DNA of 64,000 nucleotides from Mesosutterella faecium (lineage in GTDB: Bacteria; Pseudomonadota; Gammaproteobacteria; Burkholderiales; Burkholderiaceae_F), in contig NZ_JAKZJU020000001.1 of assembly GCF_022809315.2 (NCBI RefSeq), forward strand, positions 1,835,001 to 1,899,000. The letters run 5' to 3'. The first letter of the stretch is position 1. Every line of letters starts with the position of its first letter. The position numbers and the translations under genes were made by a program. Of the stretch, positions 14,863 through 61,103 are shown piece after piece. Under the pieces are notes generated by a model. The model was not told the DNA's origin. It worked only from the letters and a program-made list of their open reading frames with translations, and did not search any database.

Positions 14863-17265
14863 TCAGAAGGCGCAGCGCAGGCCCGCGTTCGCCTGCCACT
14901 TGGTCTTGATGTCGCCCGCCGAGCTCTTTTCGAGATCGGCGTAGAGGAAGACGTTCCGGCGCAGGGTGAAGTCCGCGCCGATGCCGTAGCTCACCCAGGT
15001 GTCGCCGCCGTCAGCCTCGCGGCGGTACACCGCGTCGCGGCCCGTGAGCACCACGCTGCGGTCGCCCGAGAACTCATGGTAGAGGTCGAACTTGAGGTAG
15101 ACCTTCGAGGGCGCGAGCGACTCGGAGAACCGGAAGTCGCGGCCGAAGCGCACCCCGAGCCTTCCGATCACGCTGTCGGTGGAGTCCTGATGGACCCGGA
15201 TGCCGTTGCTCAACCCGTAGCTCGCGCTGTCGAGATAGGTGTAGACCAGCTGAGCCTGGGGCTCGATCATCAGACTGTGGGGGAGCTCAAACCTCCTGCC
15301 GCCTTCAATCGCGAACGACCAGGCGTCGTTGCTGTAGGAGGCTTTGGCTTTCTGGCCGCCGCTCGTGATCGTGTAGTCGTCCTTGAGGTGCGTGTATTTT
15401 CCGATGACGTCGGCGTAGCAGCCCGCGTCGTTGCTCCAGGAGAGGTAGAGCGAAGCGCCCACGGAGTCGAGGTCGCCCGAGCCGTTCGTGAACTTCGGGT
15501 CGTTGTCGGTCGTGTGCACGGCCCCGCCCAGGATGAAGGTTCCCCTGCCGTTCTTCGGGCGGAAGGCGTAGTCCGCGCCCAGCTGGTAGAACTGGTAGTT
15601 GTCGCGGAAGCTGCCGTTCGCGTTCGAAGTCATGCGGCCGGCCTTGGCGCGCACCCAGACGCCCGCAGCGTCGGCGCCGTAGCGGCGGATCTCGCCCATG
15701 CGCTTGTTGAGCGTGTCGAGCTCCAGGAACGAGGTGGCCGCGGCGTAGTTGAGCGAGGCGTCGGCGATCACGACCTCAGCCGCGGGGGTCGGATCCTTCT
15801 GCAGCCCCACGATGTACCAGTTGGTGCCGTATTTGTTTTCGTCCGTGCTGTTGACGTTCTGGTCGACGACCGGGGTGTAGTCGTAGACGAAGCCGTCGGA
15901 GAGCTCCGTTTTCTCGGTGTAGGCGCTGAAGGCGACGCCTGCGGGCGTGTTGGCGAACCAGATCGGGCTCTCGCGGCTCACGCCGTCAAGCTTCAGCCGG
16001 TCCACCGGAAGGACCTTGAAGGAGCCGCTGCCGGACTTCACGTAAAGGAAGTCGTTGCGGCCTTCCACCGCCGTGTGGCTTGAATCCTTTCCCTCCCAGT
16101 CGCTGTCTGAGACCTCGTAGCCCGGCTCCTTGAGCGGTCCGCTCTTGTTGGCCGAGGTGAGGTCCATCATGAAGATGCCGCCTTCGCCCGTGAGGCTTGA
16201 GAGGGAGAGCTGCTGGGTGAGCCCGGATTTTCCGGTATGGCGGTTGAAGCCGTGCAGGTTGACGATGCCGCCGTCCTTGACCTCGAGGTTCTGCATCACT
16301 TCAATCGGCAGGTCAGGCACCCACTGGGCGCCGTTGGAAAGCGAAACCGTGAGATTGCTCTTGTCCGAAAGGTTCGTGCCGTGGCCGTGCCAGTAGGACT
16401 CGGCGTTGTCGAGCTTCACGTTCATCGTCCCCTTCTTCGTATCCAGGTTCCCGAGCAGCTGCACGGTGTGGCCGCCCGCCTGGTTCACGTTGATGGTGGC
16501 GCCGTTTTTGGCCGACAGGGCGTCGTTCTTGCTCATGCCGGGACCGTAGCCGCTTTCATAGGCCTCGGAGAGCCCCTCGCTCAGAATGGTGTTGACATAG
16601 ACGTTGCCCAGAAGGTTCACGCGCACCTCGTCGCCGGTGGCATAAATCGCATTGTTCGCCACCGTGAGCGACTCGGGGTTTTGGACGCTCACCCTGGAGG
16701 TGATACTGACGTCCCCGAGGTTCACGACCGCCTTGTACATGGCATTGAGGGCCGTGGAATTCACCTGGACCGGGGAACCGCCGGAGGCGCGGTCGTCAAC
16801 GCCCGTAATGTCGATGCTGGCGGTGTAGGAGCCCACGTTGTAGGTCGCGCCTTCCTTGGCAAAGAGGGCCTCCTGGATCTGATAGACGGAGTCCTTCGAG
16901 ACGTGGATCCTGCCGGTCGAAGTGACATCGAGGCTCTTGATCGAATAGGTGTTCCCCTCGACTGCCTCGCACTGGTCCTTCTGGAAGTCCGCGACGTAGC
17001 CGTACAGGCCGGTGCCCCGGTAGTCCCAGTCGACCTTGAAGGAGAAGCTGCCGTTTTCGCTTCCCAGCTTGTAGCCGTGGATCTTCGGGCTGTAGATGTC
17101 ATCGCCTTTGGCCACCGTACCTGCGTAGGAGAAGTCTCCCGCTGCCAAGGCCGGGCAGGAAGCGGCCGCAAGCGCTGCGGCCACGGCGGCGGCCAGCCCC
17201 GCAAAGGCTGCGCCATGGGCGCGGATAGTTCGGTGTTTCTGAAGACCTGGTCTTTTGCCTGTCAT
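14863..17265 (-). CDS. Autotransporter with C-terminal beta-barrel (type Va secretion)
   Basis: 800 residues. Residues 1-42 are a long basic signal peptide ending SCPALAAG. A passenger of about 470 residues is rich in Gly, Asn, Ser, Thr and Val with imperfect beta-helix-like repeats and no visible protease triad or RGD. From about residue 520 (LELDTLNKRMGEIRRYG) begins the AutB barrel, ending in Phe as expected for BAM recognition (LRCAF). A strong AAAGGAGAG site precedes the ATG. Likely an adhesin-like surface protein. Only two Cys occur outside the signal and the barrel end is otherwise normal. Monocistronic. Confidence 0.88.
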   Translation of the reverse strand: MTGKRPGLQKHRTIRAHGAAFAGLAAAVAAALAAASCPALAAGDFSYAGTVAKGDDIYSPKIHGYKLGSENGSFSFKVDWDYRGTGLYGYVADFQKDQCEAVEGNTYSIKSLDVTSTGRIHVSKDSVYQIQEALFAKEGATYNVGSYTASIDITGVDDRASGGSPVQVNSTALNAMYKAVVNLGDVSITSRVSVQNPESLTVANNAIYATGDEVRVNLLGNVYVNTILSEGLSEAYESGYGPGMSKNDALSAKNGATINVNQAGGHTVQLLGNLDTKKGTMNVKLDNAESYWHGHGTNLSDKSNLTVSLSNGAQWVPDLPIEVMQNLEVKDGGIVNLHGFNRHTGKSGLTQQLSLSSLTGEGGIFMMDLTSANKSGPLKEPGYEVSDSDWEGKDSSHTAVEGRNDFLYVKSGSGSFKVLPVDRLKLDGVSRESPIWFANTPAGVAFSAYTEKTELSDGFVYDYTPVVDQNVNSTDENKYGTNWYIVGLQKDPTPAAEVVIADASLNYAAATSFLELDTLNKRMGEIRRYGADAAGVWVRAKAGRMTSNANGSFRDNYQFYQLGADYAFRPKNGRGTFILGGAVHTTDNDPKFTNGSGDLDSVGASLYLSWSNDAGCYADVIGKYTHLKDDYTITSGGQKAKASYSNDAWSFAIEGGRRFELPHSLMIEPQAQLVYTYLDSASYGLSNGIRVHQDSTDSVIGRLGVRFGRDFRFSESLAPSKVYLKFDLYHEFSGDRSVVLTGRDAVYRREADGGDTWVSYGIGADFTLRRNVFLYADLEKSSAGDIKTKWQANAGLRCAF

Positions 17266-19362: not shown

Positions 19363-19881
19363 ATGTCAAAGACTCTTGTCATTTATTACTCGCGCTCCGG
19401 CGAAAACTACTCCCGGGGCCGCATCGTGCGTCTCGCCCGCGGCAACACGGAAAGGGCCGCGGACATGATCCGGGAGGCGGCCGGCGCCGACCTTTTCCGG
19501 GTCGAGGCCGTCGAAGACTACCCCGAAGACTACCGGGCCTGCACCGAGCAGGCGAAGGACGAGCTCGAGCGGGGCGCCCGCCCGGCGCTCAAGCGCAGCC
19601 TGTCCGACCTCTCCGGCTGGGACCGCATCGTGGTCGCGGGCCCGTGCTGGTGGGGGACGTTCCCGATGGCGCTCTTCACGCAGCTTGAGGCGCTCGACTT
19701 CACCGGGAAAAAGGTCTTCGTCCTCGTGACGCATGAGGGCTCGGGGTTCGGCCGCGCCGAGCGGGACGCGAAGCGCGCCTGCCGCGGGGCCGCCTTTGGA
19801 GAGGGGCTTGCGGTCTGCGGGCCCGATGTCGACCAAAGCCGCGCCCTGATCGAAGCCTGGGCCCGGCGCTGCCTCGCCTGA
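19363..19881 (+). CDS. Flavodoxin family protein
   Basis: 172 residues. The N-terminal FMN phosphate loop is YYSRSGENYSRG, followed by the W-containing GPCWWGTFPM loop and VLVTHEGSGFG, as in flavodoxin_4-type proteins. The insert after the P-loop (IVRLARGNTERAADMI) is normal for this group. It lacks a signal peptide, so it is cytoplasmic, unlike its relative at 57702. No clear Shine-Dalgarno sequence is present before the ATG; a strong hairpin lies there instead. Probably an electron carrier or quinone/flavin reductase. Confidence 0.8.
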   Translation: MSKTLVIYYSRSGENYSRGRIVRLARGNTERAADMIREAAGADLFRVEAVEDYPEDYRACTEQAKDELERGARPALKRSLSDLSGWDRIVVAGPCWWGTFPMALFTQLEALDFTGKKVFVLVTHEGSGFGRAERDAKRACRGAAFGEGLAVCGPDVDQSRALIEAWARRCLA

Positions 19882-52253: not shown

Positions 52254-53536
52254 AGGAGGCGGGGCTGCGGCCCGTCTTCGCGCTCGTCGACGCGAACTCG
52301 TTTTACGCCTCCTGCGAGCGGGTGTTCAGGCCGGACCTCGCGGGCCGGCCGCTCGTGGTGCTCTCCAACAACGACGGGTGCGTCGTCACGCGCTCGGCGG
52401 AAGCCAAGAAGATGGGCATCAAAAACGGGACCCCGGCCTTCAGGCTCGCCGGCCTCATCCGCTCGGGGGCGCTGGTCGCCTTCTCCTCGAACTACGAGCT
52501 CTACGGCGACCTCTCGGCGCGGATGATGAGGACGGTGGCGGGGATGGTGCCGCGCATCGAGCCCTACTCGATCGACGAGTGCTTCGCCGACCTCACGGGG
52601 ATGCCGGGCGACCTCGCGCCGCTGCTCGTGCAGATCAGGGCCCGGGTGCTCAAGTGGATCGGGATCCCCACCTGCGTGTCCTGCGCGCAGACCAAGACGC
52701 TCGCGAAGCTCGCCAACCACCTTGCGAAGACCTACCCGGCGCTTGGCGGCACGCTCGACTGGACGGCGCTTGCCGCCCCGCGGCGCGAAAAGGCGCTCTC
52801 GCTCGTGCCCGTGGGGGAGGTCTGGGGCGTGGGAGGCCGCAGCGCCGAGGCGCTGCGGCAGATGGGGGCCCGCACGGCGCTCGAGTTTGCGAGGCTTCCC
52901 GCCTCGGCCGTGCGCCGCAGGTTCGGGGTCGTGCTCGCGCGTACCCACGCGGAGCTCAACGGCCTGCCCTGCATCGAGCTCGAAAGCGCCCCGCCGCCGC
53001 GCCGGCAGATCATGCGCTCGCGCTCCTTCGCCCGCCCGTGCGGCGAGTTCCAGGACGTGGCGGCGGCTCTGGCCTCGCACACCGCGGCCGCCTGCCGGCA
53101 GCTGCGCTCCCAGCGGCTCGCCGCCCGCGCCGTGAGCGTCTTTTTCCAGACCAACGTCTTCGACCCGAAGGCTCGGCAGTGCTTCGCGGAGCAAAGCTGC
53201 GGGCTCTCGCGGCCTTCGGCCGACACGCTCGTGCTCACGGAGGCCGCGGTGAAGGCCGCGCGCCGGGCCTGGCGCGAGGGGTTCGCCTGGAAAAAGGCGG
53301 GCGTGATGCTCTCCGGGCTCGAGCCCGAGGACGAGGCCCAGCCGGACCTCTTCGAGGCGCAGTCCGACGCGCGCTCGAAAAGCCTCATGGCCACGCTCGA
53401 CCGGCTCTCCGGGCGCTACGGGCGCGATGTGCTGCAGACCGGCACCGAGAGGGCCTCGAACGGCTGGGCCATGGCCCGCGCGCTCAAGTCGCCCTGCTAC
53501 ACCACGCGCCTTTCCGACCTTCCCCGGGTGAGCTAG
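52250..53536 (+). CDS. umuC: DNA polymerase V catalytic subunit (Y-family)
   Basis: 428 residues from the ATG at 52250, overlapping the umuD stop as ATGA. Y-family landmarks: FALVDANSFYASCERVFRPDL (first catalytic Asp), VVLSNNDGCVVTRSAEAKKMG, SIDECFADLTG (catalytic Asp-Glu), and GIPTCVSCAQTKTLAKLANHLAK. VWGVGGRSAEAL is the helix-hairpin-helix region and the C-terminal UmuC domain is complete. Performs error-prone lesion bypass with processed UmuD. Its stop region overlaps by four bases the end of the convergent AraC-type gene. Confidence 0.95.
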   Translation: MKEAGLRPVFALVDANSFYASCERVFRPDLAGRPLVVLSNNDGCVVTRSAEAKKMGIKNGTPAFRLAGLIRSGALVAFSSNYELYGDLSARMMRTVAGMVPRIEPYSIDECFADLTGMPGDLAPLLVQIRARVLKWIGIPTCVSCAQTKTLAKLANHLAKTYPALGGTLDWTALAAPRREKALSLVPVGEVWGVGGRSAEALRQMGARTALEFARLPASAVRRRFGVVLARTHAELNGLPCIELESAPPPRRQIMRSRSFARPCGEFQDVAAALASHTAAACRQLRSQRLAARAVSVFFQTNVFDPKARQCFAEQSCGLSRPSADTLVLTEAAVKAARRAWREGFAWKKAGVMLSGLEPEDEAQPDLFEAQSDARSKSLMATLDRLSGRYGRDVLQTGTERASNGWAMARALKSPCYTTRLSDLPRVS

Positions 53537-54444
53537 GCGCGGGCCGCGATGCGCTTCTTCACGTCCCGCAGCGGCGGCTGGCCGAAGAGCCTCTTGTACT
53601 CGCGCACGAACTGCGTGGGGCTCTCGTAGCCCACCTCGTAGGCGGCGGAGGAGACGTTCGCGCGGCCGGCCATCAGGAGGCGCTGCGCCTCGTAGAGCCG
53701 CAGCCGCTTCACGTACTGCAGGGGCGAGAGCCCGGTGACCGACTTGAACTGGCGGCGGAAGGCCGAGGGCGACATGTGGACGCGCTCGGCGATCTCCTCG
53801 ATCCTGTGCTCGCTTGCGAAGCTGCCGCGCAGCCACGAGAGCGCCGTGTACACCGCGTGGCTGCGGGTGCCCGCGGTGAGCAGCGACCGCAGCTGCGGGC
53901 CGCACTCCGAGCGGGTGAGCAGGTAGTGGATCTCGCGGCTGTAGACCGGGGCGAGCGCCCGGATGTCCCCGGGCCGCTCGATGAGCTCGAGCAGCCGCAG
54001 CGTCGCGTCAAGGAGCCGCTCCCCGGACTTGAAGACGAAAACGCCCGAGTCGACCGAGGCGGGCGGCGGCTGCAGGTCTTCGGAGCCCCCGAAATCGGCG
54101 AGCATCTGGGGGTCGAGCGCGAGGCTTGCCGCATAGAATGGCCGCCCGGCGCTCGCTCCCACCGCGTGGAAGGTCGAGGGAACGGCCGCCCCGCACACGA
54201 GGCACTCGCCCTCGCGGTAGCGGTAGACGCGGTCGCCCACGGTCGTCATCTTCTCGCCCTGGACCACCACGGAAAAGGAGACATAGCCCAGGCTGCTGCC
54301 CAGGGTGTTCGAGTTCTCCGCCCGGTAGACCGAAAGTCCCGGCACCGGCGAGGCCTTCGTCACCACCGCCTCCGGGCCGAAGTCCATGCGGCCGAGGATC
54401 TGCAGCATGGCGCGGATTTTCGGGCTCAAGGCGCTCTCTGTCAT
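53533..54444 (-). CDS. AraC-family regulator, YqhC-like
   Basis: 303 residues. Residues 20-180 are the cupin-like AraC N-terminal domain (GLSVYRAENSNTLGSSLGYVSFSVVVQG, REGECLVCGAAVPSTF). Residues 205-295 hold two helix-turn-helix units (RIEEIAERVHMSPSAFRRQFK and VSSAAYEVGYESPTQFVREYKRLFG). Domain make-up, and position just upstream of and divergent from YqhD-type genes, match E. coli YqhC, an activator of yqhD-dkgA in response to aldehydes. Likely the regulator of the dehydrogenase cluster at 54830-61004. Its 3' end overlaps umuC's by four bases. Confidence 0.88.
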   Translation of the reverse strand: MTESALSPKIRAMLQILGRMDFGPEAVVTKASPVPGLSVYRAENSNTLGSSLGYVSFSVVVQGEKMTTVGDRVYRYREGECLVCGAAVPSTFHAVGASAGRPFYAASLALDPQMLADFGGSEDLQPPPASVDSGVFVFKSGERLLDATLRLLELIERPGDIRALAPVYSREIHYLLTRSECGPQLRSLLTAGTRSHAVYTALSWLRGSFASEHRIEEIAERVHMSPSAFRRQFKSVTGLSPLQYVKRLRLYEAQRLLMAGRANVSSAAYEVGYESPTQFVREYKRLFGQPPLRDVKKRIAARA

Positions 54445-54829
54445 GGCTTTCTCCCCCTCCCCAGAAAAGGCGCGGCCTTTCCTCCTGCGCTTCCCGGGAA
54501 AGGCGGGAATGAGAAAAGAACCGCTTCAACCGGGTTCATTTTAGGCAGAATTCATAGGGGAAAGAAGCCTGAAACGATTTCATTTTTATCAAAAATGGCA
54601 AGCCCGGGGCCGGCCCGGGGCGACGGCGGCGCTGCGGCAGGACAGGCTTCCTCTGGATTTTCAGGCAAAACTCCCTTCCAAAAACGCTCACCTTTTCCCC
54701 CCGGCCCGCCTATAGTTCCAGTCACTCGCCCGGCGGGATCCGTCCCATCCGGACGCCGGGGACGGGCGGTGGATTCCGCTTCATGCCCTCCGCCCTGCGG
54801 TCTTTCAGTTGATTAAAAGGAAAGAAAAC
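54445..54829. promoter_or_regulatory. Divergent control region of the YqhC-like regulator and first alcohol dehydrogenase gene
   Basis: 385 bp without a gene. TATAGT (54711-54716) may be the -10 for the dehydrogenase. TCAGGCA (54661-54667) and GCTCACCT (54686-54693) both recur upstream of the Tat flavodoxin gene (57583-57589 and 57626-57633), so they are candidate recognition elements for a shared activator. AAGCCCGGGGCCGGCCCGGGG at 54600-54620 contains a GC-rich palindrome. Confidence 0.45.
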
Positions 54830-55993
54830 ATGCATTCCTACAATCTTTACCTCCCCACGCGTCTCGTCTTCGGCGAGGGCGCGATTGAAAAGCTCCCCGA
54901 ACTCACGAAGGGCTTCGGAAAGAAGGTTCTCATCGTCATGGGCGGCGGCAGCGTCAAAAGAAACGGGATTCTGGACCGCGCCAAAGAGCTCCTGAAAGAC
55001 CGCAAGGTCTTCGAGCTCTCCGGGGTCGAGCCCAACCCCCGCATCACGACGATCCGGAAGGGGGTCGAGATCTGCAAAAAAGAGGGAATCGAGTGGCTGC
55101 TTCCGATCGGCGCGGGCAGCGTCATCGACTCCGCCAAGGCGATCGCGGCCGGAGCCTTCTACGAGGGCGACGCCTGGGACCTCGTGCTCGATTCCTCGAA
55201 GATCAAAAAGGCGCTCCCGATCTTCGTCGTCCTCACCAATGCCGCGACCGGCAGCGAATATGACGCGGGCGGCGTGATCTCCAACCTCGAGACCGACGAG
55301 AAGCTGCCCATCATGTCGCCGCTGCTCTTCCCCGTCGCCTCGATCATGGATCCGGCCTACACCTGCACGGTGCCCCCGAAGCACACCGCCGCGGGCGCGG
55401 CCGACATCTTCTCGCACACGATCGAGCAGTACATCGTGATGGACGGCAACATCCTCACCGACGCGATGTGCGAGGGGATGCTCAAGACCGTGATCGAGTG
55501 CACGCCGCGGGTGCTCAAAAACCCGAACGATCTTGACGCGCGCGGCCAGCTCATGATGGCGAGCTCCTTTGGCTGCTGCGGGCTGCTCTCGATCGGGCGC
55601 TCCCCCTCGCCCTGGCCCTGCCACGGCATCGAGCACGAAATCTCCGCCTGGCACGACATCACGCACGGCGAGGGGCTTGCCGTGATCACCCCGCACTGGA
55701 TGCGCTGGAGCCTCACCGAAAAGACCGCTCCGCGGCTCGCCCAGTACGGCGTGCGCGTTTTCGGCCTTGACCCGAAGGCCCCCGCGATGGAAAACGCGGA
55801 AAAAGCGATCGAGAAGACAAGCGAATTCTTCCGCTCGATCGGCATTCCGGCGACCTTGTCCGAGCTCGGGGTCACCGACGAGCACTTCGAAGCGATGGCC
55901 GACCACGTGATCAGCCACTGGCATCCGCTCTCCGCCGCCTTCCGCCCGATCGACCGCGAGGGGATCCTTGCGATCCTGCGCGCCTCGCTTTAA
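54830..55993 (+). CDS. YqhD-type iron-containing alcohol dehydrogenase, copy 1
   Basis: 387 residues from the ATG at 54830 (AAAGGAAAG site). Group III metal-dependent alcohol dehydrogenase: NADPH-binding GGGSVKRNG and PIGAGSVIDSAKAIA; metal ligands in AADIFSHTIEQY (Asp, His), HGIEHEISAWHDITHGEG (two His). YqhD reduces a wide range of short aldehydes with NADPH in the cytoplasm. Closest in sequence to copy 3 (about 30 differences by eye), with copy 2 a little further away. Followed at once by its own hairpins, so it is probably monocistronic from the shared promoter region with the AraC-type regulator. Confidence 0.92.
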   Translation: MHSYNLYLPTRLVFGEGAIEKLPELTKGFGKKVLIVMGGGSVKRNGILDRAKELLKDRKVFELSGVEPNPRITTIRKGVEICKKEGIEWLLPIGAGSVIDSAKAIAAGAFYEGDAWDLVLDSSKIKKALPIFVVLTNAATGSEYDAGGVISNLETDEKLPIMSPLLFPVASIMDPAYTCTVPPKHTAAGAADIFSHTIEQYIVMDGNILTDAMCEGMLKTVIECTPRVLKNPNDLDARGQLMMASSFGCCGLLSIGRSPSPWPCHGIEHEISAWHDITHGEGLAVITPHWMRWSLTEKTAPRLAQYGVRVFGLDPKAPAMENAEKAIEKTSEFFRSIGIPATLSELGVTDEHFEAMADHVISHWHPLSAAFRPIDREGILAILRASL

Positions 55994-56077
55994 AAAGCGC
56001 CTGAAAAAAGCGTCCTTCCGGGGCGCTTCTGACTCAAGGCCGCCCCCTGGGGAATCAGCCCCCGCGGGACGGCCTTT
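55994..56077 (+). terminator. Terminators after alcohol dehydrogenase copy 1
   Basis: AAGCGCC/GGCGCTT (55995-56028 region) directly after the stop, then AAGGCCG (56036-56042) with CGGCCTT (56070-56076) and TTT. Together they separate copy 1 from copy 2. Confidence 0.6.
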
Positions 56078-56280
56078 GGCGTTCTGGCGCTTTCTTTTTT
56101 CCTCTGGCAGCGTTCAAGGCAAAAAGGGCTGCGGCCTCAGACCGCCCGCCTGCCGCAAAGACATTTGCCCTATCATCACTTCCCGCAGGCCCGCCCCCAA
56201 AGAGAGAGAGGGGGCGGCGCCCTAAGACAGGCAGCCGGCCCTCCGGCCTTCATCGGATTCAGCCATTTAAGGAAAACGCT

Positions 56281-57444
56281 TTGCATCCCTACGGTCTTTA
56301 CCTCCCCACGCGACTCGTTTTCGGCGAAAACGCGATTGAAAGGCTCCCCGAGCTCACGAAGGGCTTCGGAAAGAAGGTTCTCATCGTCACGGGCGGCGGG
56401 AGCGCCAGAAGAAACGGGATCCTCGGCCGCGCCAGAGAGCTGCTGCGGGACCGCGAGATCTTCGAGCTCTCCGGGGTCGAGCCCAACCCCAGGATCACGA
56501 CGATCCGGAAAGGGGTTGAAATCTGCAAAAAGGAAGGCATCGAGTGGCTGCTTCCGATCGGAGGAGGCAGCGTCATCGACTCCGCCAAGGCGATCGCGGC
56601 CGGAGCCTTCTACGAGGGGGACGCCTGGGACCTCGTGCTCGACTCCTCGAAGATCAAAAAGGCGCTTCCGATTCTCGTCGTCCTCACCAACGCCGCGGCC
56701 GGCAGCGAATACGACGACTCGGGCGTGATCTCCTGCCTCGAAACCCATGAGAAGCTGCCGTTCGGCTCGCCCCTTCTCGCCCCGGCCGCCTCCGTGATGG
56801 ACCCGGCCTACACCTGCACGGTGCCCGCAAAGCACACCGCCGCCGGGGCGGCCGACATCTTTTCGCACACGCTCGAGCAGTACCTCGTGGCAGACGGCAG
56901 CATCCTCACCGACGCTATGTGCGAGGGGATGCTGCGGACCGTGATCGAGTGCACGCGGCGGGTGCTCAAAAACCCGAACGACCTTGACGCGCGCGGGCAG
57001 CTCATGATGGCGAGCTCCTTTGGCTGCTGCGGGCTGCTCTCGATCGGGCGCACGCCCTCGCCCTGGCCCTGCCACGCGATTGAGCACGAGCTCTCCGCCT
57101 GGCACGACATCACGCACGGCGAGGGGCTTGCCGTGATCACCCCGCACTGGATGCGCTGGAGCCTTACCGAAAAGACCGCCCCGCGGCTCGCGCAGTACGG
57201 GGTGCGGGTCTTCGGGCTGGATCCCAAGGCCCCCGCGATGGAAAACGCGGGAAAAGCGATCGAAAAGACGAGCGGGTTCTTCCGCTCGATCGGCATGCCC
57301 GCGGCGCTTTCCGAGCTCGGGGTCACGGACGAGCACTTCGAAGCGATGGCTGACCACGCGGTCCTCCACAGGCCCCTTCTTTCCACAGCCTTCCGGCCGC
57401 TTGACCGCGGGGGGATCCTCGCGATCCTGCGCGCTTCGCTTTAA
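56281..57444 (+). CDS. YqhD-type iron-containing alcohol dehydrogenase, copy 2 (TTG start)
   Basis: 387 residues beginning at a TTG at the place where copies 1 and 3 have ATG; AAGGAAAACGC precedes it, so TTG is the natural start. Motifs are complete: GGGSARRNG, PIGGGSVIDSAKAIA, AADIFSHTLEQY, HAIEHELSAWHDITHGEG. It is the most diverged copy, mainly near the coenzyme-binding region and the C-terminus (HAVLHRPLLSTAF). The TTG start suggests lower expression than its siblings. It has its own upstream region and strong hairpins after it. Confidence 0.92.
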   Translation: MHPYGLYLPTRLVFGENAIERLPELTKGFGKKVLIVTGGGSARRNGILGRARELLRDREIFELSGVEPNPRITTIRKGVEICKKEGIEWLLPIGGGSVIDSAKAIAAGAFYEGDAWDLVLDSSKIKKALPILVVLTNAAAGSEYDDSGVISCLETHEKLPFGSPLLAPAASVMDPAYTCTVPAKHTAAGAADIFSHTLEQYLVADGSILTDAMCEGMLRTVIECTRRVLKNPNDLDARGQLMMASSFGCCGLLSIGRTPSPWPCHAIEHELSAWHDITHGEGLAVITPHWMRWSLTEKTAPRLAQYGVRVFGLDPKAPAMENAGKAIEKTSGFFRSIGMPAALSELGVTDEHFEAMADHAVLHRPLLSTAFRPLDRGGILAILRASL

Positions 57445-57452
57445 AACAATCC

Positions 57453-57531
57453 TTCAGGGCCGCGGCCCTGAACGGACGCCTGCGGGCGGCCGGGAAACCG
57501 GGGGCTTCTGCCGGGACGCCCGGCCGCCCGC
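57453..57531. terminator. Perfect palindrome and long GC stem after alcohol dehydrogenase copy 2
   Basis: 57453-57472 is a perfect 20-bp palindrome centred on CCGCGG. Ten bases on, GCGGGCGGCCGGG (57482-57494) pairs perfectly with CCCGGCCGCCCGC (57519-57531), a 13-bp stem. Together they should block read-through into the flavodoxin gene. Confidence 0.75.
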
Positions 57532-57701
57532 GGTGTTTCAGCCGCTTTCCCTTCTCTTCGAAAAATATCCAAAAAAGTCGTTTCAGGCAGTTTTCAGCGC
57601 ACAATCTGTCATTTTTAAGGCTCCGGCTCACCTATATTGTTCACATCGAAAAAAGAAGAGCGCCCCCTTTCCGGAGTGCGCCACGCACAGGAGCCCATTC
57701 C

Positions 57702-58274
57702 ATGAAACACAGGTTCTCACCTTCCCGCAGAAGCCTTCTCAAGGCCGCCTGCGGCGCGCTTGCCGCCGCGGGACTCCCGGGCCTTGCCCAGGCCGCCCCG
57801 GGCAAAAGCATCGTCATCCTTTTCAGCCGCACGGGCAACACCGCGCTCCTCGCCGAGACCGTGGCGAAGGAAAAGGGCTTTCCGCTGCTGCGGCTGCAGC
57901 TCCAGAAGCCCTACGCCGCGAACTACGGCGACATGACCGACATCGCCCGCGAGGAGCTGCGAGTCGACGCGCGGCGCGAGATCGCGACCCGAATCCCGGA
58001 CCTCTCGGGCTACAGGAACGTGTTCATCGCGACGCCGCTCTGGTGGGGGCACGCCTCGATCCCGATGAGGACGTTCCTCAAGGACCATCCGCTTGCGGGC
58101 AAGAACATCTACCCCATCATCACCTCCGGCAGCTCCACCCCGGAGGACGTGGTCTCCGACATCCGGCGCTTCTGCCCGAAAGCCTCCGTGCAGAAGGAGT
58201 TCTGGGTGCCGGGCTCGCAGGCCGCGGGCTCCCGAAAGGAGCTCCTTGCCTGGCTCAAGGCCGTGGGGTTCTGA
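57702..58274 (+). CDS. Tat-exported flavodoxin
   Basis: 190 residues. Twin-arginine signal SRRSLLKAACGALAAAGLPG ending AQA, then a flavodoxin_4 domain: FMN loop LFSRTGNTALLAETVA, TPLWWGHASIPMRTF, and ITSGSSTPEDVVSDIRRF. The Tat route fits a protein exported with bound FMN. AGGAG precedes the ATG. It is first in a cluster with copy 3 of the alcohol dehydrogenase, a cyclophilin-like protein and an exported aldo/keto reductase, on one strand. Probably a periplasmic electron carrier or reductase; partner unknown. Confidence 0.88.
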   Translation: MKHRFSPSRRSLLKAACGALAAAGLPGLAQAAPGKSIVILFSRTGNTALLAETVAKEKGFPLLRLQLQKPYAANYGDMTDIAREELRVDARREIATRIPDLSGYRNVFIATPLWWGHASIPMRTFLKDHPLAGKNIYPIITSGSSTPEDVVSDIRRFCPKASVQKEFWVPGSQAAGSRKELLAWLKAVGF

Positions 58275-58341
58275 CTGAAGCCCCCCGGACTGCGGCCGCT
58301 CACACGATTCATTCGAAATTGATTTCATGAGGAAAAACACC

Positions 58342-59505
58342 ATGCATCCCTATACGCTTCACCTTCCCACGCGGCTCGTCTTTGGCGAGGGCGCGATTGA
58401 AAAGCTTCCCGAGCTCACGAAGGACTTCGGAAAGAAGGTTCTCATCGTCATGGGCGGCGGCAGCGTCAAAAGAAACGGGATTCTGGGCCGCGCCAGAGAG
58501 CTGCTGCGGGACCGCAGGATCTTCGAGCTCTCCGGAGTCGAGCCCAACCCCCGCATCTCGACGATCCGGAAGGGGGTCGAGATCTGCAAAAAGGAAGGGA
58601 TCGAGTGGCTGCTTCCGATCGGGGCGGGGAGCGTCATCGACTCCGCCAAGGCGATCGCGGCCGGAGCCTTCTACGAGGGCGACGCCTGGGGCCTCGTGCT
58701 CGACTCCTCGAAGATCAAAAAGGCGCTCCCGATCTTCGTCGTCCTCACCAACGCCGCGACCGGCAGCGAATACGACGACTCGGGCGTGATCTCGAACCTC
58801 GAGACCGACGAGAAGCTGCCGATCGGCTCGCCCCTTCTCGCCCCCGTCGCCTCGATCATGGACCCCGCCTACACCTGCACGGTGCCCCCGAAGCACACCG
58901 CCGCGGGCGCGGCCGACATCTTCTCGCACACGATCGAGCAGTACATCGTGGCGGACGGCAACATCCTCACCGACGCGATGTGCGAGGGGATGCTGAAGAC
59001 CGTGATCGAGTGCACGCCGCGGGTGCTCAAAAACCCGAACGACCTCGACGCGCGCGGGCAGCTCATGATGGCTAGCTCCTTTGGCTGCTGCGGGCTGCTC
59101 ACGATCGGGCGCACGCCCACGCCCTGGCCCTGCCACGCGATCGAGCACGAGATTTCCGCCTGGCACGACATCACGCACGGCGAGGGACTTGCGGTGATCA
59201 CCCCGCACTGGATGCGCTGGAGCCTCACGGAAAAGACCGCCCCGAGGCTCGCCCAGTACGGGGTGCGCATCTTCGGGCTGGATCCAAGGGCCCCCGCGAT
59301 GGAAAATGCGGAAAAAGCGATCGAGAAGACGAGCGGGTTCTTCCGCTCGATCGGAATCCCGGCGACGCTTTCCGAGCTCGGGGTCACCGACGAGCACTTC
59401 GAAGCGATGGCCGACCACGTGCTCAGCCACTGGTGGCCGCTTTCCGGGGCCTTCCGGCCGCTCGACCGCGAAGGAATTCTCGCGATCCTGCGCGCCTCGC
59501 TCTGA
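58342..59505 (+). CDS. YqhD-type iron-containing alcohol dehydrogenase, copy 3
   Basis: 387 residues from the ATG at 58342 (AGGAAAAACACC site), chosen over the ATG at 58327 because it aligns with the other copies. All coenzyme and metal motifs are intact (GGGSVKRNG, AADIFSHTIEQY, HAIEHEISAWHDITHGEG). Very similar to copy 1 at both DNA and protein level, showing recent duplication or gene conversion. It lies 67 bp after the flavodoxin gene and 21 bp before the cyclophilin-like gene, so it is in the operon with the exported proteins. Confidence 0.92.
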   Translation: MHPYTLHLPTRLVFGEGAIEKLPELTKDFGKKVLIVMGGGSVKRNGILGRARELLRDRRIFELSGVEPNPRISTIRKGVEICKKEGIEWLLPIGAGSVIDSAKAIAAGAFYEGDAWGLVLDSSKIKKALPIFVVLTNAATGSEYDDSGVISNLETDEKLPIGSPLLAPVASIMDPAYTCTVPPKHTAAGAADIFSHTIEQYIVADGNILTDAMCEGMLKTVIECTPRVLKNPNDLDARGQLMMASSFGCCGLLTIGRTPTPWPCHAIEHEISAWHDITHGEGLAVITPHWMRWSLTEKTAPRLAQYGVRIFGLDPRAPAMENAEKAIEKTSGFFRSIGIPATLSELGVTDEHFEAMADHVLSHWWPLSGAFRPLDREGILAILRASL

Positions 59506-59526
59506 ATCCGAAGGAGGAGCTCTTCC

Positions 59527-59952
59527 ATGAAGCGCACGTTCTTCCTCCGCGCGGCGGCGGCCGCAGCCGCCGCGGCGCTCATTTCAGGAGCAGCCATGGC
59601 TGAAAACATACTGATGCAGACGGGCGGAAAGACTTATTCCATCGCCCTGCTTGATAACGACGCGGCGCGAAGCTTCGCCTCGCAGCTGCCCCTGAAGCTC
59701 CGGTTCGAGGACTACGGAGAGGTGGAGCGAGTCGCCTACCTCAAAGAAAAGCTTGCCACCGGTTCCGCGCCGAAAATCCACACCCCGAGCCGGGGCGAGC
59801 TCAACTACTACGCCCCCTGGGGCAACCTCTGCGCCTTCACCGGCCCCTTCAGGCGCTCGCCGGGCCTCGTGCCGCTCGGCCGCATGAGCGGGGAGGCGAT
59901 CGAGGCGCTGCGCGGCAGCGGCAGCTCCGAAGTCGTGTTCAGAAAGCCCTGA
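59527..59952 (+). CDS. Secreted cyclophilin-like fold protein
   Basis: 141 residues. Signal peptide MKRTFFLRAAAAAAAAALIS ending AMA. The mature part (LMQTGGKTYSIALLDNDAAR, YAPWGNLCAFTGPFRRSPGLVPLGR) matches the small cyclophilin-like domain family often found next to flavodoxin and aldo/keto reductase genes. AAGGAGGAG precedes the ATG. It lacks the catalytic residues of true prolyl isomerases as far as I can see. Role in the aldehyde cluster unknown. Confidence 0.8.
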   Translation: MKRTFFLRAAAAAAAAALISGAAMAENILMQTGGKTYSIALLDNDAARSFASQLPLKLRFEDYGEVERVAYLKEKLATGSAPKIHTPSRGELNYYAPWGNLCAFTGPFRRSPGLVPLGRMSGEAIEALRGSGSSEVVFRKP

Positions 59953-60050
59953 AGCGCAGCCATTGAGAAAGGGAAGCGCCGCCAGCCAAGGCTCACGGGC
60001 TTTTCAAAACTGACGGCAGGCCGCCCGCATCCGGCAGGAAGGAGGACATC

Positions 60051-61004
60051 ATGAACAGAAGCTTTGCGGAACAAAGAAGGGAGGTGCTTCGCGCGCTTCT
60101 CGCCCTGGGGCTGTCCGCTGCGTCCGCTCCGGCCGCGAGGGCCGCCTCTGCCCTTCGGAGCCCGGTGCGGGCGAAGCGAGGAATCATGGGAAAATTCAAC
60201 TTTCAGACCCGCCGGGTTCTCCTGAACAGCGGCTGGGAAATGCCGATTCTGGGGCTCGGAACCTACGCCCTCTCGGACCGGGAGTGCGAGGCCTCTATCA
60301 ACGCCCTGCTTGAAGCGGGCGGAAGGCTGATCGACACGGCCCACGCCTACGGCAACGAGGCGGCCGTCGGCCGCGCCGTGAGGCGCTCCTCCGTCCCCCG
60401 CGGCGAGATCTTCGTCACGACGAAGATCTACCCCGACCAGTTCAGCCGCCCCGGGCAGGCGATCAGGGAGGCCTTTGAGAAGACCGGGCTCGACTACATC
60501 GACATGATCCTGCTGCACCATCCGGGTCCCGGCGACCTCGAGGTCTACAAGGCTCTTGAAAAGGAGGTCGACGCCGGGCGCGTCCGCTCGATCGGGCTCT
60601 CGAACTGGTACGTGAAGGAGCTGAAGAGCTTCCTGCCGAAGGTGAGGATCCGCCCCGCCCTCGTGCAAAACGAAATCCATCCCTACTACCAGGAAAACGA
60701 TGTGATCCCCTTCATCCAGCAGCAGGGCATCGTCGTGCAGGGCTGGTATCCGCTCGGCGGCCGGGGCTACGTGCATCAGCTCCTCGCCGACCCGGTCCTC
60801 ACCGGGATCGCCAGGGCTCACGGCGTTTCGGCCGCCCAGGTGGTGCTGCGCTGGAACCTGCAGAAAGGCGTCATCGTGATCCCGGGCTCGAGAAAGCCCG
60901 CCAAAATCCGTGAGAACCTGGATCTTTTCGGCTTTTCGCTCAGCAGCGAAGAAATGGAGCGGATCCGGGGGCTCGACCGGGGCGAAAAGCACGACTGGTA
61001 CTAA
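60051..61004 (+). CDS. Aldo/keto reductase with Tat-like export signal
   Basis: 317 residues. Residues 1-33 look like an export signal with a twin Arg (EQRREVLRALLALGLSAAS) and an ARA cleavage site. The AKR barrel begins near residue 50; tetrad Asp95, Tyr100 (LIDTAHAYG), Lys125 (VTTKIYP), His156 (ILLHHPGP); NADP block VIVIPGSRKPAKIREN. It resembles the DkgA/2,5-diketogluconate reductase branch, the partner of YqhD in E. coli. AAGGAGGA precedes the ATG. An alternative internal start at Met46 (GIMGKFNFQ) would give a cytoplasmic form. End of the cluster. Confidence 0.85.
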   Translation: MNRSFAEQRREVLRALLALGLSAASAPAARAASALRSPVRAKRGIMGKFNFQTRRVLLNSGWEMPILGLGTYALSDRECEASINALLEAGGRLIDTAHAYGNEAAVGRAVRRSSVPRGEIFVTTKIYPDQFSRPGQAIREAFEKTGLDYIDMILLHHPGPGDLEVYKALEKEVDAGRVRSIGLSNWYVKELKSFLPKVRIRPALVQNEIHPYYQENDVIPFIQQQGIVVQGWYPLGGRGYVHQLLADPVLTGIARAHGVSAAQVVLRWNLQKGVIVIPGSRKPAKIRENLDLFGFSLSSEEMERIRGLDRGEKHDWY

Positions 61005-61013
61005 AGGTGCAGA

Positions 61014-61069
61014 TAAAAAAAGGGCCGCGCCGAAAGGGCCTTCACGGGCCCGGAGCCCGGGCCGCGGCC
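61014..61069 (-). terminator. Terminator of the DoxX gene
   Basis: Minus-strand GGCCGCG (61069-61063) pairs with CGCGGCC (61029-61023) and is followed by CTTTTTTT. It may also serve the aldo/keto reductase on the other strand, though without a T-run there. Confidence 0.65.
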
Positions 61070-61103
61070 TCCTTCGCTCTTAAACAAAGGGCGAAGCGGG
61101 CAG

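Follow-up and report, generated by a model that had tools for sequence, protein, structure and literature searches.

A YqhC/YqhD/DkgA-like gene cluster with three dehydrogenase copies and a recurrent set of exported proteins

RESULTS

The window analyzed here, i.e., the whole 64-kb stretch from base 1835001 to base 1899000 on contig 1 of a 2.6-Mb genome (the "own genome", G000), contains a seven-gene cluster between 53.5 and 61.0 kb. An AraC-family regulator on the minus strand is followed on the plus strand by dehydrogenase 1, dehydrogenase 2, a flavodoxin, dehydrogenase 3, a cyclophilin-like protein (Cyc), and an aldo/keto reductase (AKR). With moderate confidence, we interpret the locus as a lineage-specific variant of a YqhC/YqhD/DkgA-like electrophile response, in which dosage-amplified cytoplasmic NADPH aldehyde reductases would be combined with a recurrent, separately evolving exported flavodoxin/Cyc/AKR module. 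The cluster gives the impression of a known stress-response locus that has been amplified locally, not of a new type of system. The places and families that a sequence-only reading had given to the seven genes were borne out by domain matches, and the three dehydrogenases indeed comprise 387 amino acids each. The cluster consists of the following features:

53533-54444, minus strand: AraC-family regulator, YqhC-like, 303 amino acids (Pfam AraC_N, 123 bits, and HTH_18)
54445-54829, no strand: divergent intergenic region between regulator and dehydrogenase 1, presumed regulated promoter, alignable with Mesosutterella porci
54830-55993, plus strand: dehydrogenase copy 1, 387 amino acids (Pfam Fe-ADH and ADH_Fe_C; GAGSVID loop; 38% identical to Escherichia coli YqhD)
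56281-57444, plus strand: dehydrogenase copy 2, TTG start, 387 amino acids (Pfam Fe-ADH and ADH_Fe_C; AAGSE loop)
57702-58274, plus strand: exported flavodoxin (Flavodoxin_4) with a twin-arginine-like signal, SRRSLLK...ALAQA, identified by sequence reading
58342-59505, plus strand: dehydrogenase copy 3, 387 amino acids (Pfam Fe-ADH and ADH_Fe_C), flanked by flavodoxin and Cyc in M. porci too
59527-59952, plus strand: exported cyclophilin-like protein (Cyc), 141 amino acids (Cyclophil_like2, 102 bits)
60051-61004, plus strand: DkgA-like AKR, 317 amino acids (Aldo_ket_red, 162 bits), with a signal resembling those for twin-arginine translocation (Tat)

The nearest named genome was that of M. porci (G046), in which copy 1 is 97% identical. 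From this similarity, we infer that the DNA comes from a relative of Mesosutterella, a member of the family Sutterellaceae.

Family and motifs of the dehydrogenases

All three copies matched Fe-ADH and ADH_Fe_C above the cutoffs, which places them in the iron-type alcohol dehydrogenase superfamily, and were 37 to 38% identical to E. coli YqhD. On the YqhD equivalog model PRK15138, they scored 275, 249, and 264 bits, against an NCBIfam cutoff of 645 bits. Because of this distance, the label "YqhD-like" is right and "YqhD" wrong as far as profile scores can tell; the earlier description as "YqhD-type" holds for domains and identity, but not at the level of the equivalog. Among solved relatives, 7w9x scored highest (349 bits), followed by 1vlj, an "NADH-dependent butanol dehydrogenase" (295 bits), and YqhD itself (1oj7, 250 bits). 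This ranking speaks for a fermentative or catabolic role, in which butanol-dehydrogenase-like enzymes would serve alcohol formation or the use of host-derived aldehydes rather than detoxification. We nevertheless regard such a role as unlikely, given that the neighboring regulator and AKR follow the YqhC/DkgA layout of E. coli, which constitutes a stress regulon there.

In an alignment with E. coli YqhD, the metal-ligand columns (DIFSH, CH.IEH, and DITH) were intact in all three copies, with one Asp and three His residues, which we assume to be the metal ligands of YqhD. Residues 38 to 41 read GGGS without Asp, as in E. coli YqhD; this presumably fits NADPH use and was counted in favor of NADPH-dependent reductases. 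The sequence-only reading had all coenzyme and metal motifs preserved, which proved correct for the metal ligands, whereas a coenzyme loop was altered in each copy. At the second coenzyme loop (residues 94 to 97), copies 1 and 3 carry GAGS, within GAGSVID, and copy 2 carries GGGS. The latter was present in 20 of 24 aligned dehydrogenases, the four GAGS exceptions being copies 1 and 3 along with the two of M. porci. Copy 2, in turn, has AAGSE where the remaining 23 of the 24 rows have ATGS(E/D). The comparison was widened to 78 rows that included other families, in which excerpts of one protein may count twice and 3 (GAGS) or 5 (AAGSE) rows were unmatched by the search expressions. GAGS was present in 6 of these rows, counted in bulk, and AAGSE in 11 (copy 2 included). 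Since it occurs in 11 of 78 rows, the AAGSE change is a natural variant. Purifying selection continues in the four copies that carry the GAGS loop.

Copy number and history of the dehydrogenases

Amino acid identity amounted to 88% between copies 1 and 2, 93% between copies 1 and 3, and 89% between copies 2 and 3; DNA identity was 86 to 91% over the first 300 nucleotides (nt) and 88 to 92% over the entire genes, far beyond chance. The repeats extended ∼12 bases upstream of the start codons and no further, so the upstream regions were apparently not duplicated with the genes. In five genomes of the genus, places with more than 55% identity numbered three (own genome), two (M. porci, which lacks copy 2), five in tandem (G044), two on separate contigs (G047), and zero (G045, where the search gave no match at E ≤ 1e-60). 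In a 24-row tree, the own and M. porci copies clustered in a clade separate from that of the five G044 copies; the expansion thus occurred at least twice. The G044 array (L042:5706-12955) consists of five tandem, diverged dehydrogenases, and the 19.5 kb read contained neither a flavodoxin nor an AraC match. An empty site for this array was sought by searching its flanks in G000, G045, G046, and G047; matches were scattered, and none demonstrated such a site.

At 47 codons informative for copies 1 and 3 in both species, sites of the "same genome" and "same position" types lay in blocks (19 runs versus 28.7 after shuffling; P = 0.0015). Because of this block structure, the mosaic copies suggest gene conversion. 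The ratio of nonsynonymous to synonymous divergence (dN/dS) was 0.08 to 0.24 for pairs among the five copies of the two species, pointing to purifying selection. A selfish or neutral expansion, in which passive tandem duplicates are subject to conversion, copy 2 is decaying, and copy 1 alone matters, seems improbable to us. It would account for the higher dN/dS of pairs that include copy 2 (0.17 to 0.24, versus 0.08 to 0.17 in the six remaining pairs), for the TTG start of copy 2 and its absence from M. porci, and for a copy number ranging from 0 to 5 in the genus. However, all copies have remained intact under purifying selection, and the independent five-copy array of G044, with its diverged members, suggests retention.

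Exported proteins of the cluster

The flavodoxin matched Flavodoxin_4 with 63.8 bits (Pfam cutoff, 24). For Cyc, the predicted model had a pLDDT (predicted local distance difference test) score of 88, and its best fold match was the atypical cyclophilin TM1367 (1zx8, E = 2.6e-6), with weaker matches to Pictet-Spenglerases; the comparison with cyclophilin peptidyl-prolyl isomerases was one of fold. The AKR was 37% identical to DkgA over residues 56 to 313. It contained the Aldo_ket_red domain above the cutoff but reached 193.6 bits on the DkgA equivalog PRK11565, whose cutoff is 425. By reading, its N terminus comprises RR, a hydrophobic stretch, and an AxA motif. Copy 3 lies inside the exported segment, 19 to 21 nt from Cyc in both the source genome and M. 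porci. In M. porci, Cyc and AKR are separated by an additional gene (L045:13754-14707), whose product has a dienelactone-hydrolase domain.

The exported module across the family

The gene set was then sought in 67 family genomes, searched per gene, with neighboring matches counted as linked if their starts lay less than 6 kb apart. A total of 97 flavodoxin, 76 regulator, 48 Cyc, 86 AKR, and 72 dehydrogenase places were counted; many genomes are in small contigs ending nearby, which makes all linkage counts lower bounds, and the AKR query misses other AKR subfamilies. Linkage was found in at least 15 of the 67 genomes for Cyc and flavodoxin, 14 for regulator and flavodoxin, 9 for regulator and AKR, 8 for regulator and Cyc, 5 for dehydrogenase and AKR, 4 for AKR and flavodoxin, and 2 for AKR and Cyc; the dehydrogenase was linked with regulator, flavodoxin, and Cyc in 3 genomes each. 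The exported parts were thus associated in relatives, and flavodoxin and Cyc were even fused in three genomes (G005, G063, and G056, the last with a frame of uncertain start; loci L060:1271-2203, L059:3419-4414, and L058:1629-3266), with export signals by reading. The domain arrangement in a model of a fused protein was set aside because residues 228 to 283 were predicted in blocks with pLDDT of ∼29 to 45.

An exported AKR-Cyc-flavodoxin trio was present in G018, G016, and G019 (L067:2595-4811, L170:2779-5081, and L171:2507-4956) beside a divergent gene that we named LysR type by reading. The AKR of the trio carries a Tat-like signal and is 20 to 23% identical to that of the window; no dehydrogenase was found in the 6.5 to 9 kb read at these loci. 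In G044, two Cyc proteins accompany an exported flavodoxin, with a Cytochrome_P460 protein (L065:3782-4258) ahead of them.

Export signals were also scored by rule. Among 26 flavodoxins, 20 showed RR plus a hydrophobic stretch, 2 a hydrophobic stretch alone, and 4 neither, the last looking like Tat or Sec signals cut by parsing. An earlier form of the rule assigned signals to 18 of 19 Cyc and 8 of 22 AKR proteins (13 had none, and 1 lacked a start). As controls for that form, it flagged a single AraC protein out of 8 and none of 41 dehydrogenases, with 3 more dehydrogenases lacking a start.

Module parts beyond the family

Plasmid records matched the flavodoxin in 76 cases, the dehydrogenase in 1770, and Cyc in 704, and 14 stretches picked by eye were opened. 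An AKR lay within a few genes of flavodoxin or Cyc in 7 of 12 such stretches (Selenomonas, Lactiplantibacillus, Treponema, Achromobacter, Pseudomonas, Sinorhizobium, and Klebsiella pneumoniae); none was nearby in the other five (Enterococcus raffinosus, Vescimonas, a second Achromobacter place, Rhizobium, and Pantoea). Two dehydrogenase stretches (Enterococcus faecalis and Klebsiella oxytoca) listed no AKR, flavodoxin, or Cyc. Cyc adjoins the AKR in Klebsiella and Pseudomonas and lies two genes away in Sinorhizobium, and in Achromobacter the flavodoxin is located between two AKRs. By reading, export signals are present on flavodoxins of, e.g., Selenomonas, Treponema, and Achromobacter and on the Klebsiella Cyc, and absent from three further Cyc and several AKR proteins. 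Because both occur in these plasmid stretches, neither the exported flavodoxin nor the family grouping is unique.

A phylum-wide check covered 30 loci with ∼1.5 kb of flanking sequence, 26 of which matched our Cyc profile. These 26 loci contained AraC in two cases, an AKR in two (one being the window itself), and no flavodoxin within the flanks. With flavodoxin at none of the 26 loci, the flavodoxin-Cyc linkage is seen mainly within the Sutterellaceae.

Regulator, candidate operators, and hairpins

The regulator has the same domains as E. coli YqhC (AraC_N and HTH_18), with 35% identity over 240 amino acids, and, like YqhC, it combines AraC_N and an AraC helix-turn-helix with a divergent orientation to a yqhD-like gene. 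The pattern TTNAGGCANNNYT occurred four times in the window, versus 0.41 expected, and three of the four occurrences lay in gaps of the cluster, two before copy 1 and one before the flavodoxin. The second regulator-flavodoxin locus of the own genome had one looser match upstream of its flavodoxin. The candidate operators and the hairpins after copies 1 and 2 are as follows:

54540-54552, plus strand: candidate operator TTYAGGCARNNYT, match to TTNAGGCANNNYT; present in M. porci
54660-54672, plus strand: candidate operator, second copy, match to TTNAGGCANNNYT; present in M. porci
57582-57594, plus strand: candidate operator upstream of the flavodoxin, match to TTNAGGCANNNYT; the M. porci copy 1-flavodoxin gap has the variant TTAAGGCAA
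55994-56100, plus strand: terminator-like hairpin after copy 1 (−53.7 kcal/mol, z = −3.7, T-rich tail)
57445-57560, plus strand: strong hairpin after copy 2, possible terminator (−68.6 kcal/mol, z = −4.4, weaker tail)

Since the source genome and M. porci are close, the conservation of the candidate sites between them constitutes weak evidence. Each dehydrogenase copy had been described as separated by terminators. This agrees with the hairpins after copies 1 and 2, but not with the junction of copy 3 and Cyc, where folding was no stronger than that of shuffled sequences (z = 0.2). A simple terminator scan, itself weak (22 sites versus 13.8 expected), gave no plus-strand site in the 67-nt flavodoxin-copy 3, the 21-nt copy 3-Cyc, or the Cyc-AKR gaps. 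A further hairpin stretch follows the AKR (61000-61100, z = −2.3).

Neighboring genes

Upstream of the cluster lies a UmuD/UmuC-like pair, the UmuC-like protein scoring 404 bits against a cutoff of 431, and downstream are a DoxX gene and an Hsp20 gene. The window contains a further flavodoxin-related frame at ∼19435-19866 (G000:C1:1854435-1854866; 28% identity).

DISCUSSION

Evidence against a joint response

Several observations weigh against a single electrophile response shared by all seven genes. Synonymous divergence (dS) from M. porci was 0.71 for the flavodoxin and 0.60 for Cyc, far above that of the flanks (umuD, 0.21; umuC, 0.12; regulator, 0.12; DoxX, 0.14; Hsp20, 0.19), with copies 1 and 3 at 0.22 and 0.38. 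Because of this excess, the exported part has a history different from that of the flanks, and the exported segment was probably replaced through recombination in one lineage. Furthermore, the M. porci AKR frame holds one TGA and one TAA (L045, ∼14935-15870), and the GAGS change might impair coenzyme binding. The motif TTYAGGCARNNYT had 28 matches genome-wide (17 forward and 11 reverse), versus 10 for a reversed-pattern control. Of its matches, 25 lay outside the cluster. Frames of at least 100 amino acids, counted on both strands, took in 18 of these, a repeated element 5, and other gaps 2. Such frames are a lax criterion, since they also contain the three sites of the cluster. The regulator gaps of G044, G045, and G047 and the E. 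coli yqhC-yqhD gap gave no match to a looser pattern. On these counts, TTYAGGCARNNYT was dropped as the operator of a genome-wide regulon, and the proposal was limited to the local cluster. The repeated element is probable in itself, as L132, L134, L141, L144, and L145 of the own genome share, near 1501-1921, a stretch upstream of a 132-amino-acid frame. Finally, all five gene kinds occurred together in 2 of the 67 genomes, so a joint function was weakly tested by the family comparison.

The cluster could instead combine two unrelated neighbors, an amplified dehydrogenase array having been inserted into a preexisting AraC-flavodoxin locus whose exported proteins do a separate job (e.g., respiratory or quinone chemistry) with no common substrate. 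Such an origin is a serious, though less probable, alternative. It is consistent with the distinct divergence of the exported segment, with regulator-flavodoxin loci devoid of the dehydrogenase in 12 of the 67 genomes (dehydrogenase and flavodoxin being linked in just 3), and with the G044 array and its surroundings. On the other hand, dehydrogenase, flavodoxin, and regulator are together in G047, of the same genus, and the close spacing of copy 3 and Cyc within the exported segment is shared by both species. Of the sequence-only reading, a YqhC-like regulator next to amplified NADPH-type aldehyde reductases and to proteins bearing export signals found support. The two-compartment system at which it had hinted was not supported as one conserved whole, in view of the rarity of the complete set and of dehydrogenases near flavodoxin or regulator, of the two stops in the M. 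porci AKR, and of the module elsewhere being accompanied by a LysR-type regulator and another AKR, with no dehydrogenase in the stretches read. A two-compartment detoxification role of the present locus is plausible.

Proposed mechanism and significance

Gene identities, copy number, export signals as read from the sequence, the recurrence of the module, and the mosaic nature of the copies are established by the present analysis. For the lineage-specific electrophile response, we infer inducers, substrates, operator function, operon limits, electron flow, and joint action as follows. The AraC-family activator probably binds the TTYAGGCARNNYT repeats before dehydrogenase 1 and before the flavodoxin and would thereby turn on two transcription units. 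The first would provide cytoplasmic dehydrogenase 1, perhaps also dehydrogenase 2, reducing short aldehydes with NADPH. The second would comprise flavodoxin, dehydrogenase 3, Cyc, and AKR and would bring in one more dehydrogenase together with the three exported proteins. The enzyme dose would be raised by tandem duplication with gene conversion, and a carbonyl or quinone-type electrophile is the likely periplasmic target of the exported module, which recurs in the Sutterellaceae. The AKR would cross via Tat already folded with NADP(H); glucose-fructose oxidoreductase is a precedent for Tat export with bound NADP.

A bolder idea is that the Sutterellaceae moved a carbonyl- or electrophile-reduction set to the periplasm, although other bacteria keep parts of this set in the cytoplasm. 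Two AKR subfamilies would have gained Tat signals and joined exported flavodoxin and Cyc; the flavodoxin would re-reduce the AKR or trapped NADP(H), Cyc would dock or bind substrate, and the dehydrogenases would clear the cytoplasmic leak. We give this idea little credence, and slightly less than before because export extends to the Cyc of Klebsiella and to several flavodoxins outside the family.

Joint action of the exported proteins, if it exists, would allow a gut bacterium to detoxify reactive carbonyls both inside and outside its inner membrane; reducing power would then have to be supplied to a compartment beyond the cytoplasm in which no free NADPH is expected. The genus, moreover, offers a natural copy-number series (0, 2, 2, 3, and 5) for enzyme dose via tandem duplication and gene conversion.

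Comparison with known systems

The Sutterellaceae trio resembles the exported part of the cluster in that AKR, Cyc, and flavodoxin are adjacent and all carry export signals by reading, but differs in its LysR-type neighbor, its distant AKR, and its lack of a dehydrogenase in the stretches read. The seven plasmid stretches with an AKR near flavodoxin or Cyc, representing recurrent neighborhoods of AKR, Cyc, flavodoxin, and carboxymuconolactone decarboxylase, list no iron-type alcohol dehydrogenase, and several of their Cyc and AKR proteins have no export signals. YghA was rejected as an exported parallel from E. coli, its listed N terminus having no plain Tat signal. The enzyme 7w9x, which like 1vlj we take to be of the type named YugJ or BdhA, matches the dehydrogenases over residues 1 to 387 with a score above that of YqhD, but its own GGGS loop is intact.

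The closest counterpart in layout is E. coli yqhC-yqhD-dkgA. In agreement with the single copies given by the sequence-only reading, the 16 kb of K-12 that were examined carry yqhC, yqhD, and dkgA once each and in this order. Both loci have a divergent AraC_N regulator, an iron-type dehydrogenase, and then a DkgA-like AKR. In contrast to E. coli, the cluster described here has three dehydrogenases instead of one, an inserted exported flavodoxin and Cyc, and an AKR with an export signal, at 35 to 38% identity. The gene families are already known, and it is their arrangement that constitutes the variant.

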